DNA of 64,000 bases from Komagataeibacter intermedius TF2 (lineage in GTDB: Bacteria; Pseudomonadota; Alphaproteobacteria; Acetobacterales; Acetobacteraceae): NCBI RefSeq assembly GCF_000964425.1, contig NZ_BANF01000031.1, forward strand, positions 1 through 64,000. The letters run 5' to 3'. The notes beneath the pieces were generated by a model that saw nothing but the letters and a program-made list of their open reading frames with translations, did not search any database and was not told where the DNA came from. The translations under genes and the position numbers were made by a program. Below, in pieces: positions 28,300-32,495 of the stretch (the first letter of the stretch is position 1; each line of letters opens with the position of its first letter).

Positions 28300-29187
28300 C
28301 TATCCCTCCTGCAGCAGGCGCGATGCGGTGGCCGCGGCCGCCGCGCGCGTACTCAGGCCGGTCTTGTTGTAGATCTGCTCGATATGCTTGTCGATCGTGC
28401 GCGGGCTGACCTGCAGGATGTCGGCAATGTCGCGGCTGGTCTTGCCGCGCGATATCCATAACAGCACTTCCGCCTCCCGCGCGCTCAGGCCCAGCCGGTC
28501 GCGCAGTATCTTTTCGGGAAACAGGGCCTGTCGGGCAATGCGCAGCAGCAGTTCGTCCGGCCCGGTGGCGCCGACCAGCGTCAGGACAAACGCGTTTTCC
28601 CCCATGCTCTGGCGCATCAGCACGCCACCGGGCGCGGGCAGCGTGTCGGGCAGGGGAATGGCGGCCCCCGTCATGCCCGCCAGTTCATCCAGGATCAGCC
28701 GGGCCTGCGGGGTGGCCCACAGCACGGCGCCGGTGCGGCTGGTGGCGAACAGGAAACGCCCGGCATGGTCGAGCGCGCCATGGGCGGAACGGATGCGCGC
28801 CGCCGCTTCCATCCGCACGCCAATGCGGGCCATGACTTCCTCCAGCCGCAACGGTTTTGTCACGTAATCCGCGGCGCCGGCCTCAAAGGCGCGGATGACG
28901 TGTTCCGTCTCGGTCAGGCCGGTCATGAAGATGATGGGCACCGCAGTCAGCCGCATGTCATGGCGCAGGGCGGCGCACACATCCCACCCGTTCATGCCGG
29001 GCATGAGGGCATCGACCATGACCAGGTCGGGCACGGTGCGCGCGGTCACTTCCAGTGCCGTACTGCCGGACTGCGCCAGCAGGACGGTATAGCCGCCTTC
29101 CGCCAGTTTCTCATCCATCAGGCCAAGTACGGCAGGGTCGTCATCAATGACGAGGACGGTCTTGCGCGATGTATCGGGCGTTGTCAT
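28300..29187 (-). CDS. LuxR-type response regulator, partner of the permease-kinase
   Basis: The product is 295 residues. The N-terminal receiver has the acidic pocket around D15-D17, the phosphorylation site D59 (LVMVDALMPGMNG) and K111 (DYVTKPL). A linker of about 100 residues leads to a LuxR helix-turn-helix near residues 233-292 (LSAREAEVLLWISRGKTSRD). The start overlaps the kinase stop by four bases, so the two are coupled. It probably controls the urea genes; a candidate binding dyad lies at 32559. Confidence 0.93.
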   Translation of the reverse strand: MTTPDTSRKTVLVIDDDPAVLGLMDEKLAEGGYTVLLAQSGSTALEVTARTVPDLVMVDALMPGMNGWDVCAALRHDMRLTAVPIIFMTGLTETEHVIRAFEAGAADYVTKPLRLEEVMARIGVRMEAAARIRSAHGALDHAGRFLFATSRTGAVLWATPQARLILDELAGMTGAAIPLPDTLPAPGGVLMRQSMGENAFVLTLVGATGPDELLLRIARQALFPEKILRDRLGLSAREAEVLLWISRGKTSRDIADILQVSPRTIDKHIEQIYNKTGLSTRAAAAATASRLLQEG

Positions 29188-32100
29188 GGCGCGGGTGGCT
29201 CCAGATGATGGCGCAGGGCTTCCAGTTGATAGGCGGCGGCAAGTTCACACAGCGGCGCGATGGCCTCACGCAGGGCGGGATTTTCGGTCTGGAGCGTAAG
29301 GAGACGCTCACGCACGCGCCGCATGTTGCCGCCATTGAGCAGCGCCAGAAGCGCCTCACGCTCCGCCTCCGGCAGTGCTGTCGCGGGGATCGTCGGCCCA
29401 TCGGCCGTTTCAGCCGTATCGACTGTCGGGAAATTCCATGACAGGTCAAGCATCCGCCCGATTTCGGTCACAAGCACGGACAGATTCACCGGCTTGCCCA
29501 GCACGGGACAGTCATCAAGCGAGGGGACATGCCGGTTCGCGCTTTCCACCAGATTGCCGGTCAGGAACATGATCGGCACGGCGGCAAAGGGCGACTGCCG
29601 TATGCGCAGCGCAAGGTCGCGTCCGTCCATGCCCGGCATGGACAGGTCCAGCAGCAGCAGGTCCGGCCGCACGAAGGGCAGGCGGTCAAGACATTCCGTG
29701 CCACTTTCCGCGCCCTCGAACACGAAGCCGCACCGTTCAAGGATTTCGCGCATGATCAGCCGGTGTTCGGCATTGTCATCCACCACCAGCACGGTGCGCA
29801 AGGGCCCGTCATACCCGACCGGGAAGGCCGGTAGCTGCGGGGCAAGTTCCACCTGCCGGTCCGACAGCATCAGGCGCACGCGAAAGCGCGATCCTGCGCC
29901 CGGCGTGCTGGTAAATGTCAGTTCACCGCCAAGGATTTCCGTCAGCAGTCTGGTAATGGTCAGCCCCAGCCCGGTGCCCGGCACGCCCGCGCTGCCACTG
30001 CCGCGCTCGAAGGGTTCGAATATGCGGCCATAGTCTTCTTCCGCAATGCCGGGGCCGGTGTCGGCTATGATGAATTCCGCGATCTGCCCGTGCCAGCGCG
30101 CCGTGAATGTCACGCTGCCACGGCGGGTGAACTTGACCGCGTTGGACAGCAGGTTGAGCAGGATCTGGCGCAGGCGGTGTTCGTCGCACGTCACCACGGC
30201 GGGTAGGTAGCCGGGTTGCCAGATCAGATTCAGCCCCCTGGCCATTGCCTGCGGGCGGATCATCTGGGCGACGGATTCAAGGAAGGCGGGCAGGGCGATG
30301 GTATCGGCATGGAGTTCGATACGTCCGGCCTCGATGCGCGATATGTCCAGCAGGCCGGACAGGATGCTGGTGATGTGCTCGCCACTTTCACGCATGATGC
30401 CCAGCGCCTTGTGACGTTCGGGCGGCAGGCGCGCATCATGCTGCAGAAGCTGGATGTAGCCCATGATGGCGTTCAGTGGCGAGCGGATTTCATGGCTTAT
30501 GCCACTGATATAACGGGTTTTGGCCAGACTTGCCGCTTCCGCTTTTTCCCGTGCCAGCTTGAGGGCATGGTCGGTACGGCGGCGGGCACGGATTTCGTTC
30601 ATGAGCAGGCGCGTCTGGTGCAGTGTTTCATGCGTGGCGGTGCGTCGGCCTTCCTGCGCCATGACCAGCAGCCACGCCCCGACGGCGCAGGCCACGAATA
30701 CAAGCAGCACCGTGCCATTCCATGGCTGCCCCATCCGCCATGCCACCAGCCCGAGGCCAAGCGTGATACCGCCCAGCATGAGCGAAAACCGCCCGCCTGG
30801 CGCCATCACCCGGCGGCGCAGCGCGGGCGGCAGGATGCGCAGGGGGGCGGCCATCTGCCGGTTCATGCGGGTGGAGACCGGCTTGCAGCGATCGCGGCAG
30901 CGTCCGTCAAGCGAGCAGCACAGCGAACAGATCGTGCCGCCATAAGCAGGGCAGGGCGCCATGTCCTCCGGTTCGAACGTATGTTCGCATATGACGCATG
31001 TCATGGCCGGGCGGCTGTTCCAGTCGGCTGGCTGCCGGCGCGCCAGATAGGTGCGGCCATGGGTCAGCCATGCCAGCAGGGGGGCCGTGAGGCAGGCTGC
31101 CGCCAGCGTAAGGAACGGGGCATAGGCGCTGGCGTAAATGCCAAAGACCCCCAGGTAGGCGGCCATGCCCAGACCCGCCGCCAGCCCCCATGCACCCAGC
31201 CCCACAATATTGAAATCCGGCAGCAGCGCCCGCTTGAACTCCACCAGCGCGGGGCTGAGGCCAAGCGGCTTGCATATGGTCACGTCCCCCAGGATCGCGC
31301 CAATCCACGCACATGCCAGCACGCCATACAGCGTGATGCCGGTCTGGATGGTGCTGACCAGCCCCGCTTCCATCAGCACAAGGGCGATGGCGACATTGAA
31401 TACGACATAGAACACCCGCCCCGGATGGGTATGCGTCAGGCGCGAGAAGAAATTCGACCATGCCAGCGACCCGGCATAGGCATTGGTTATGTTGACCTTG
31501 ACCTGCGCCAGCGCGACCAGCACGACCGTCAGGAACGTGGCCAGTGGGGCCGGCGTGAACGTGCCCCATGCAAAGCGGTACATAAGGCCGGGCTGCACCG
31601 CCTGCGTTGCGGAAAAACCGGCCCGCAGGATGATCCATGCAAGGAATGATCCCGCCAGCAGCTTGAACGCGTCCAGCACCACCCAGCCCGGCCCCCCCAG
31701 CACCAGCGCGGTCCACCACTGCCGCCGGTTGGCGGCGGTGGGGGGGGGCAGGAAGCGCAGGAAATCGATCTGCTCGGCGCTCTGGCACACCAGCACGATC
31801 ATGAGCGAGGCCGCCGTGCCGATGGCAATGGGGTCCAGTATGCCGGGCCGGGTCAGCAGGCCACCTGAATGCGTCCATTCATGCAGCAGGTCGGGATGTG
31901 CTGCCGCCAGCACGGCCAGCGGAATGATGTTCAGCGCGAACCATACTGGCTGTGTCGCGATCTGGAAGCGGGCGATGAAGGTGATCCCCCACGTGACCAG
32001 TGGAATGACGATGGCCGCGCACAGCAGGTAGGCCAGCCATAGCGGCATGCCCAGCAGCGTGTGCAGCGTGCCCGCCAGGATCGCCGCCTCCAGCCCGAAG

Positions 32101-32495
32101 AAGATGAAGGTAAAGCTGGCATAAAGCAGGGAGGTGATGGTCGAGCCGATATAGCCGAACCCCGTGCCGCGCGTCAGCAGGTCGATATCCAGCCCCGCCC
32201 GCGCCGCCGTCACGCATAACGGCAGGGTGACGGTGAAGATGACGGCGGTGACAAGGGCGATGGCTGCCGCCGTATTGGCAAACCCGAAGGCCAGCGTCAG
32301 CGTGCCGCCCATGGCCTCCAGCGCCAGGAACGAAATCGACCCCAGCGCCGTCAGTGCCGCGCGCATGGGCGTTGCCGTGCGGGCGCGGCGTGCGGTGAAG
32401 CGCAGGGCGTAGTCCTCGAACGTCTGGTCGGCGGCCCAGCGGCTGTAGGCCCGGCGGGGGCGCACGATACGCAGGCGGCTGGTCGGATGCGGCAA
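29184..32495 (-). CDS. NCS1 permease-like hybrid sensor histidine kinase
   Basis: The 1103-residue product starts at TTG 32495 (GGAAG upstream). Residues about 20-480 form a multi-helix domain resembling NCS1 nucleobase/allantoin permeases (EAMGGTLTLAFG, RGTGFGYIG). Residues 500-537 hold a cysteine cluster (CVICEHTFEPEDMAPC, ICSLCCSLDGRCRDRC). Two helices follow near 570-612, then a kinase with phospho-acceptor H668 (ISHEIRSPLNAI), N-box N785, ATP-lid DTGPGI and GTGLGL. A receiver has D950 (LLLLDLSMPGMDG) and K1001. The helical C-terminus lacks an HPt signature. It is probably a transport-like sensor of urea or a related compound, by context only. Confidence 0.9.
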   Translation of the reverse strand: MPHPTSRLRIVRPRRAYSRWAADQTFEDYALRFTARRARTATPMRAALTALGSISFLALEAMGGTLTLAFGFANTAAAIALVTAVIFTVTLPLCVTAARAGLDIDLLTRGTGFGYIGSTITSLLYASFTFIFFGLEAAILAGTLHTLLGMPLWLAYLLCAAIVIPLVTWGITFIARFQIATQPVWFALNIIPLAVLAAAHPDLLHEWTHSGGLLTRPGILDPIAIGTAASLMIVLVCQSAEQIDFLRFLPPPTAANRRQWWTALVLGGPGWVVLDAFKLLAGSFLAWIILRAGFSATQAVQPGLMYRFAWGTFTPAPLATFLTVVLVALAQVKVNITNAYAGSLAWSNFFSRLTHTHPGRVFYVVFNVAIALVLMEAGLVSTIQTGITLYGVLACAWIGAILGDVTICKPLGLSPALVEFKRALLPDFNIVGLGAWGLAAGLGMAAYLGVFGIYASAYAPFLTLAAACLTAPLLAWLTHGRTYLARRQPADWNSRPAMTCVICEHTFEPEDMAPCPAYGGTICSLCCSLDGRCRDRCKPVSTRMNRQMAAPLRILPPALRRRVMAPGGRFSLMLGGITLGLGLVAWRMGQPWNGTVLLVFVACAVGAWLLVMAQEGRRTATHETLHQTRLLMNEIRARRRTDHALKLAREKAEAASLAKTRYISGISHEIRSPLNAIMGYIQLLQHDARLPPERHKALGIMRESGEHITSILSGLLDISRIEAGRIELHADTIALPAFLESVAQMIRPQAMARGLNLIWQPGYLPAVVTCDEHRLRQILLNLLSNAVKFTRRGSVTFTARWHGQIAEFIIADTGPGIAEEDYGRIFEPFERGSGSAGVPGTGLGLTITRLLTEILGGELTFTSTPGAGSRFRVRLMLSDRQVELAPQLPAFPVGYDGPLRTVLVVDDNAEHRLIMREILERCGFVFEGAESGTECLDRLPFVRPDLLLLDLSMPGMDGRDLALRIRQSPFAAVPIMFLTGNLVESANRHVPSLDDCPVLGKPVNLSVLVTEIGRMLDLSWNFPTVDTAETADGPTIPATALPEAEREALLALLNGGNMRRVRERLLTLQTENPALREAIAPLCELAAAYQLEALRHHLEPPAP

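Follow-up and report, generated by a model that had tools for sequence, protein, structure and literature searches.

Fusions of a transporter to a histidine kinase are few, and even in CbrA the signal is unsettled. In the SLC5/STAC kinases CbrA, CrbS/MxtR, and RpuS, an N-terminal APC-type transporter domain is followed by a linker and a histidine kinase, and CrbS also carries a receiver (PMC5715377, PMC9100948, PMC7918813, PMC13022988). CrbS and RpuS act with LuxR-type regulators, and CrbR requires an inverted repeat (PMC5715377, PMC9100948). CbrA transports histidine, with its trigger left unresolved (PMC13022988), and its signal and transport are not clearly coupled (PMC7918813). In the ammonium sensor kinase of Kuenenia stuttgartiensis, too, a transporter fold for a nitrogen source is fused to a histidine kinase (PMC5764959). 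The subject here is a hybrid sensor histidine kinase encoded beside urea transport and urease genes in a 64,000-nucleotide stretch of Komagataeibacter intermedius TF2 (contig NZ_BANF01000031.1, positions 1 to 64,000; the window). Unlike the SLC5/STAC kinases, it has an NCS1-like domain, a linker of eight cysteines and two helices, and predicted urea or amide targets, and it differs from the Kuenenia sensor, whose Amt fold and ligand are unrelated (PMC5764959). It belongs to a large and widespread sensor family, in which the partner regulator and a DNA dyad are both conserved, and is not the lone gene that an earlier sequence-only reading of the window had described.

The domain order is an NCS1-fold membrane domain, an eight-cysteine segment, two hydrophobic helices, a kinase, and a receiver. 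Pfam recognized HisKA (residues 658-724), HATPase_c (771-877), and Response_reg (902-1011) and nothing else, leaving the stretch from the membrane domain to the kinase without a PAS or any other recognized soluble ligand domain. The cysteines (500, 503, 515, 523, 526, 527, 533, and 537), H668 (within GISHEIRS), and D950 (within LLLDLSMPG) sit where the sequence-only reading had placed them. The open reading frame (ORF) is real and not a chance frame: a copy in another genome of the genus is 84% identical over the first 560 residues, and C500, C503, C523, and C526 were kept in all 96 rows of an alignment of family members. The kinase and its partner form a hybrid kinase and LuxR-type pair, with HisKA, HATPase_c, REC, and a REC-GerE partner all present by Pfam, and the two ORFs share 4 bp (29184-29187), an overlap that the earlier reading had described correctly. 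No STAC match was found in the kinase by Pfam at E ≤ 1, the presence of the STAC model in the library being unchecked. The tail beyond the receiver (29187-29447, minus strand; residues 1017-1103, about 85 amino acids) is helix-rich by eye and had no Pfam match.

The earlier description of the membrane domain as NCS1-like was upheld by profile and structure comparison and not by the Pfam model. PF02133 matched neither the full kinase at E ≤ 1 nor, at E ≤ 10, any of the 22 family members examined, and the NCBIfam cytosine permease model was matched by three of the 22 (best 2.8e-10). Direct sequence searches of the PDB left the domain unidentified, and the family profile gave one chance match only. 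Of nine distant transporters found with the same profile, five matched PF02133 at E ≤ 0.1, three of them above the gathering score. Alignment with hhalign to a set of 11 NCS1 proteins, ten collected by PF02133 search and one first found with the family profile, gave a probability of 98.9% (E 2.7e-16, 431 columns, positions 3-481), versus 0.1% for ten SSS proteins. PF00474 (SSS) matched neither the kinase nor the 22 family members, in agreement with the earlier statement that the transporter family differs from that of CbrA; the likeness to CbrA holds in concept, as an NCS1-related and not an SSS domain joined to a kinase. An AlphaFold2 model of residues 15-640, built from 96 sequences, had a predicted local distance difference test score (pLDDT) of 90.6 and a predicted template modelling score of 0.89. 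Mhp1 and CodB ranked top in a structure search with this model, and structural comparison gave Z 36.7 for CodB (397 aligned, 2.9 Å), 28.4-31.2 for Mhp1, and 24.0 for the best non-NCS1 structure. The modelled fold is that of NCS1 (5+5 LeuT-type), set apart from the SSS domain of CbrA, in a sequence family that is NCS1-related, not a member of PF02133, and outside the Pfam model.

The fold and a profile alignment across nearly the whole domain are shared with CodB and Mhp1 (PF02133), from which the kinase differs in its cysteine-rich C-terminal extension, its kinase, and a glutamate at the position of Mhp1 Q121. In alignments made with hhalign and phmmer, Q121 and N318 of Mhp1, which we take to be substrate-contacting residues, correspond to E136 and N338, and both are invariant in all 96 rows, fused and standalone. 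E60, in the first transmembrane helix, is glutamate in all 91 fused rows and phenylalanine or glutamine in the five standalone permease rows, a distribution that marks it as a possible sensor-specific membrane site.

In the cysteine segment, the second set (C515, C527, C533, and C537) was kept in 92 of the 96 rows for each residue. It is missing from the standalone permeases of loci L027-L030 and retained in the amide-linked standalone permeases of L031 and L026. An AlphaFold2 model of residues 484-556 had a pLDDT of 75.7 overall and 82-93 by block across the cysteine core, and its predicted order of knuckle, hairpin, and helix resembles that of treble clefs. The top structural matches were mostly RING, PHD, LIM, and FYVE fingers and were weak (E 0.31 or worse, Z ≤ 3.5). 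The metal-type cluster proposed earlier is consistent with this conservation and predicted order, and we read the segment as a structural linker, predicted to be treble-clef-like and possibly binding two zinc ions. Because 12 NCS1 helices would precede it, the finger would be expected to face the cytosol. A ferredoxin reading was disfavoured, since the spacing and the predicted fold are unsuitable.

Matches to the membrane domain were found in 27 of 150 genomes of the Acetobacteraceae, the family to which the window belongs, and matches to a profile of the standalone proteins (E ≤ 1e-20) in 84 of 397. A class-level survey matched 21 of 289 genomes (20 strongly) and a phylum-level survey 60 of 398 (52 strongly, 8 weakly or as fragments). 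Among plasmid records, 526 of 72,556 matched, 342 of them from Klebsiella; E. coli genomes gave no DNA match to the membrane-domain stretch. The matches listed (80 named loci) include Bradyrhizobium, Pseudomonas, Marinobacter, Alcanivorax, Burkholderia, methanotrophs, and one cyanobacterium, and the closest named relative among them is Komagataeibacter melaceti (94%). Annotations among the family members include 'ATP-binding protein', 'response regulator', 'ArcB', and 'hybrid sensor histidine kinase', and no description of the fusion, its regulator, or the dyad was found in the open-licence PubMed Central (PMC) literature; the family is apparently unstudied. On a Klebsiella michiganensis plasmid (L021), urtABCDE and a formamidase gene are transcribed divergently from the kinase gene, and the regulator ORF that follows it (15317-16261) is missing from the PLSDB gene table. 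Three loci, L100 (6499-9156), L101, and L272, encode short variant kinases of 876-894 amino acids whose regulator is arranged differently; FmdA and FmdB are encoded nearby in L100 and L101 and only FmdB in L272.

Gene linkage was examined for 150 fused ORFs (147 distinct), a subset of all matches found via the membrane domain of the window kinase, with neighbours named by BLAST to reference proteins from the window and from annotated plasmid loci. A urt, urease, or FmdA/AmiE amidase gene was present in the locus for 140 of the 150, a regulator homolog was adjacent on the same strand for 139, and UrtA was the next gene, divergently transcribed, for 96. The window arrangement described in the earlier reading, divergent from urtA beside a urea locus, is recurrent, and the co-occurrence of the fusion with urt genes across genomes, which that reading had proposed as a check, was found. 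Linkage was of two types. In one, UrtA was mostly about 65-80% identical to that of the window and often accompanied by urease; in the other, UrtA was about 36-41% identical and mostly accompanied by formamidase or amidase.

Clustering at 85% gave 102 clusters, of which 61 were labelled amide, 33 urea, and 1 both; the other 7 were unlinked, and one of these (L024) was later relabelled urea, its urtA having been missed by the ORF caller and named in the record annotation. A tree was inferred from 110 rows, comprising the clusters, seven standalone permeases, and two distant transporters, with L207 left out as too short. The urea and amide labels required eight changes on this tree. Taken as a separate group, amide required 10 changes (shuffled mean 36.2) and urea 12 (shuffled mean 29.3), values reached in none of 500 shuffles in either case, although the contrast is inflated by near relatives. 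Four genomes (G394, G306, G373, and G524) each contain one urea-type and one amide-type kinase, in different clades. Amide rows L026, L218, L033, L034, and L203 break the pattern by adjoining urea-labelled rows. Alignment columns that split urea-linked from amide-linked kinases (e.g. G142, C237, and G303) were confounded with phylogeny and were not used as evidence. In a genome of the window's genus (G807), a second, amide-type system with consensus-like dyads (L275 and L276) accompanies the urea-type copy.

Among the 397 Acetobacteraceae genomes, a UrtA match was found in 72 of 75 with a fused kinase versus 156 of 322 others, at a threshold (E ≤ 1e-50) that includes weaker, possibly amide-type, proteins; the Fisher p values for this co-inheritance ignore phylogeny. 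Within the window's genus, the counts were 8 of 8 kinase genomes versus 0 of 6 others. Fused or unfused status was assigned from open-frame length and table reading, with G869, a fragment, scored as unfused and some frames that ran to contig ends scored as fused.

The region between the kinase gene and urtA contains a dyad with the core TACG-N8-CGTA. The longer pattern ATACGCN6GCGTAT occurs once in the genome, at the window copy, and CATACGCN6GCGTATG is common to seven kinase upstream regions of Komagataeibacter and Acetobacter relatives. Of 136 kinase upstream regions, 87 contained the core (shuffled mean 0.45); among distinct regions the count was 92 of 143, four of the 147 distinct kinases having no usable upstream region; seven control patterns gave 0-7, the inverted control CGTA-N8-TACG being found in 7 of 143. 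Throughout the 150 loci (2.6 Mb) the core occurred 130 times and the inverted control 15 times. Ninety-one of the 130 dyads were near a kinase start, and 20 of the remaining 39 were near a target-type gene. In five loci, for example, a dyad lies 29-138 bp ahead of fmdA; others lie 80 bp ahead of amiE, 59 bp ahead of a standalone permease in L031 (and in L236, a duplicate of that locus), about 110 bp ahead of porins in L133 and L135, and about 100 bp ahead of separated urtA genes in L119 and L121. This distribution suggests that the regulator binds the dyad. A one-mismatch dyad before ureD (21201-21216) was dismissed, as the window contains 11 such matches versus 10.6 expected.

We consider it probable that the kinase is a transceptor-type sensor of urea, with amides as the ligands in sister clades, which would activate urt through its regulator. 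With respect to ligand, transport, direction of regulation, phosphotransfer route, metal, and operator function, we infer the following. The NCS1-fold domain would bind urea, or formamide or acetamide-type short-chain amides in the sister clades, and perhaps transport the ligand while binding it. Binding would shift the conformation of the membrane domain, and the change would be relayed through the cytosolic, probably zinc-binding, finger and the transmembrane hairpin to the kinase. The kinase would then autophosphorylate at H668 and the phosphate would pass to the LuxR-type regulator encoded alongside; the receiver fused to the kinase (D950) would serve as a relay or a brake. The regulator would bind the dyad at 32560-32577 and activate urtABCDE and probably its own gene pair. 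The ligand class, urea for the window copy and amides for the sister clades, is the one best supported by gene linkage.

Several observations weigh against this account. Ten of the 150 fused ORFs had no urt, urease, or FmdA/AmiE neighbour; for four of these the locus was shorter than 13 kb with the gene close to an end, and in L272 FmdB was the sole recognized neighbour. The fused kinase of the cyanobacterium Phormidium (L259) had neither a recognized regulator nor urt genes in its locus. The 156 Acetobacteraceae genomes with UrtA and no kinase indicate that urt does not require the kinase, and linkage and co-inheritance would suit any regulator of these operons, including a sensor of nitrogen status or of an intracellular product. 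The exact dyad was absent from 51 of the 143 kinase upstream regions, and 19 of the 39 dyads away from a kinase were near no recognized target, in some cases because a kinase or urtA ORF had been missed. An unrelated pattern, GCAT-N8-ATGC, occurred 70 times in the same loci versus 130 for the dyad, and neither the urease operon nor the porin gene of the window is preceded by an exact dyad.

One possibility is that the membrane domain is an active permease and that flux, or the substrate it delivers, is sensed elsewhere, for example by the cysteine finger or a partner of the kinase. The domain looks intact, E136 and N338 being uniform in all 96 members, and CbrA without its SSS domain is still able to signal (PMC7918813). 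However, Pfam recognized no soluble ligand domain on the way from membrane to kinase, the shortness and near-invariance of the finger are what a structural part would show, and the restriction of E60 to the fused rows suggests a sensor-specific site in the membrane, so that sensing elsewhere seems unlikely. It also appears quite unlikely that the signal is a related cue, such as ammonium or nitrogen status, pH, or a cysteine-bound metal, with the linkage arising from shared nitrogen physiology. The fmd genes of Methylophilus methylotrophus are repressed by ammonia too (PMC10781810), and the eight conserved cysteines might respond to a metal or to redox conditions, but an ammonium or metal sensor is not expected to form urea-type and amide-type clades, paralogs in the same genome are split by substrate operon, and the unfused homologs are linked to genes for urease or amidases. 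The earlier suggestion of urea or a urea precursor such as allantoin survives in its first part, urea being best placed by linkage for the window copy. Allantoin is listed among PF02133 substrates in the model description; the recognized partners, however, are urease, formamidase and amidase genes (FmdA, AmiE) and urt-type ATP-binding cassette (ABC) transporter genes, allantoin genes not having been searched for, and allantoin would be of no evident use in the amide-linked clades. Sensing of allantoin or another urea precursor is therefore very improbable.

Unfused homologs, 38-43% identical, also bear on the preferred reading of the kinase as a urea or amide transceptor, and they occur in two settings. 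The first comprises eight loci of Acetobacteraceae genomes, probably acetic acid bacteria. In six of these (L027, L029, and L262-L265), the permease gene is 14-186 bp from a urease gene; in L028 the distance is 3.8 kb, and the L030 locus contains no urease gene. The permease genes lie at 7619-9379 in L027, 7696-9309 in L029, and 7071-8684 in L028, and the permeases of L027 and L028 had no Pfam match. None of the nine Acetobacteraceae genomes with only unfused matches had a UrtA match. The second setting, in other genomes, is near FmdA or AmiE, usually with a kinase pair (L026, L031, and L266-L270); a copy on an Arthrobacter plasmid (L025) had neither FmdA/AmiE nor a kinase pair nearby. In a mixture-model tree of 40 rows, all 32 kinases (16 hand-picked and 16 random) fell on one side of a branch with a support of 99.7, the outgroup branch being very long. 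A single fusion event is favoured by these sequences, because the 32 sampled kinases form one side of the branch. The converse, that the permeases were derived from sensors, had been considered when a FastTree phylogeny nested the standalone proteins inside the kinases, and was dropped after the mixture-model tree.

The unfused permeases beside urease are candidate urea permeases of an unrecognized family. More broadly, we tentatively suggest, as a reading less likely than not, that the whole class consists of zinc-finger-tailed, NCS1-related permeases for urea and short-chain amides, of which one branch gained a kinase in a single fusion and, with E60 confined to the sensors, became a substrate-specific transceptor, and the unfused members take up urea in urease-bearing relatives that lack Urt. 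If so, these would be, to our knowledge, the first NCS1-type urea permeases, together with receptor cousins.

The operons linked to the family contain the same kinds of genes as fmdCABDEF of M. methylotrophus, which is induced by formamide and urea; the sole regulator mentioned in the passages cited is a putative positive one inside the cluster (PMC10781810). Two genome papers of 2026 report clusters of urtABCDE with fmdA, in one case next to a two-component pair, with no function assigned in the passages cited (PMC13209695, PMC13296017). In urt operon III of Ectopseudomonas guguanensis G3, urtABCDE lies beside a LuxR-type two-component pair, described there by annotation, and the locus tags run on to fmdA (PMC13296017); this system is probably a member of the kinase family. 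Neither GrtK, a different ammonia sensor (PMC12918730), nor an Azoarcus study (PMC8467165) concerns the window kinase. The family offers a large natural experiment, with paralogs of different likely ligands in the same genome, close unfused permeases, a predicted operator for reporters, and urea, formamide, and acetamide as simple substrates. It would also provide a sensory input to the urt and formamidase operons of nitrogen-cycling, plant-associated, and food bacteria and to those carried by Klebsiella plasmids.

Table 1. Coordinates of the kinase, its domains, and neighbouring features in the window.
Feature	Positions	Strand	Basis
Hybrid sensor histidine kinase, whole gene, 1103 aa	29184-32495	-	TTG start, ORF listing
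NCS1-fold membrane domain, residues ~24-480	31056-32426	-	hhalign vs NCS1 set, AlphaFold2 model
Eight-cysteine segment, residues 500-537	30885-30998	-	conservation, AlphaFold2 model, weak finger matches
Two extra hydrophobic helices, residues 570-616, ahead of kinase	30648-30788	-	hydropathy, model helices
HisKA and HATPase_c, residues 658-877, phospho-acceptor H668	29865-30524	-	Pfam
Receiver domain, residues 902-1011, D950	29463-29792	-	Pfam
LuxR/GerE-type response regulator, 295 aa, acceptor D59 (sequence reading)	28300-29187	-	Pfam REC and GerE
Predicted regulator operator ATACGCAGGAATGCGTAT	32560-32577	.	between kinase gene and urtA
urtA, urea ABC substrate-binding protein, predicted target	32634-33974	+	TIGR03407; start by sequence reading
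urtB	33955-35568	+	above NCBIfam cut-off
urtC	35565-36704	+	Pfam BPD_transp_2 match only; name by position
urtD, start chosen inside ORF 36488-37441	36698-37441	+	above NCBIfam cut-off
urtE	37471-38172	+	above NCBIfam cut-off
Urease operon ureDABCEFG	21264-26273	+	above NCBIfam cut-offs for ureA, B, C, G; ureE below; ureD, ureF by eye and position
Outer-membrane porin, possibly FmdC-like	26382-27776	+	NCBIfam ExtI below cut-off, no Pfam match

The UrtA assignment rests on TIGR03407 (551 bits, cut-off 493), and the 5' ends across the divergent gap are 32495 for the kinase and, for urtA, a likely ATG at 32634. The urease gamma, beta, and alpha subunits and UreG exceed their NCBIfam cut-offs, and UreE has an NCBIfam match below the cut-off (4e-41); ureD and ureF had no NCBIfam match at 1e-10 and were named by eye and by position. 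The porin gene falls between the urease operon and the regulator gene, and is followed by a 148-amino-acid ORF (27843-28289, plus strand) with no Pfam or NCBIfam match. Homologs of this porin directly precede urtA in L133, L135, and L279.

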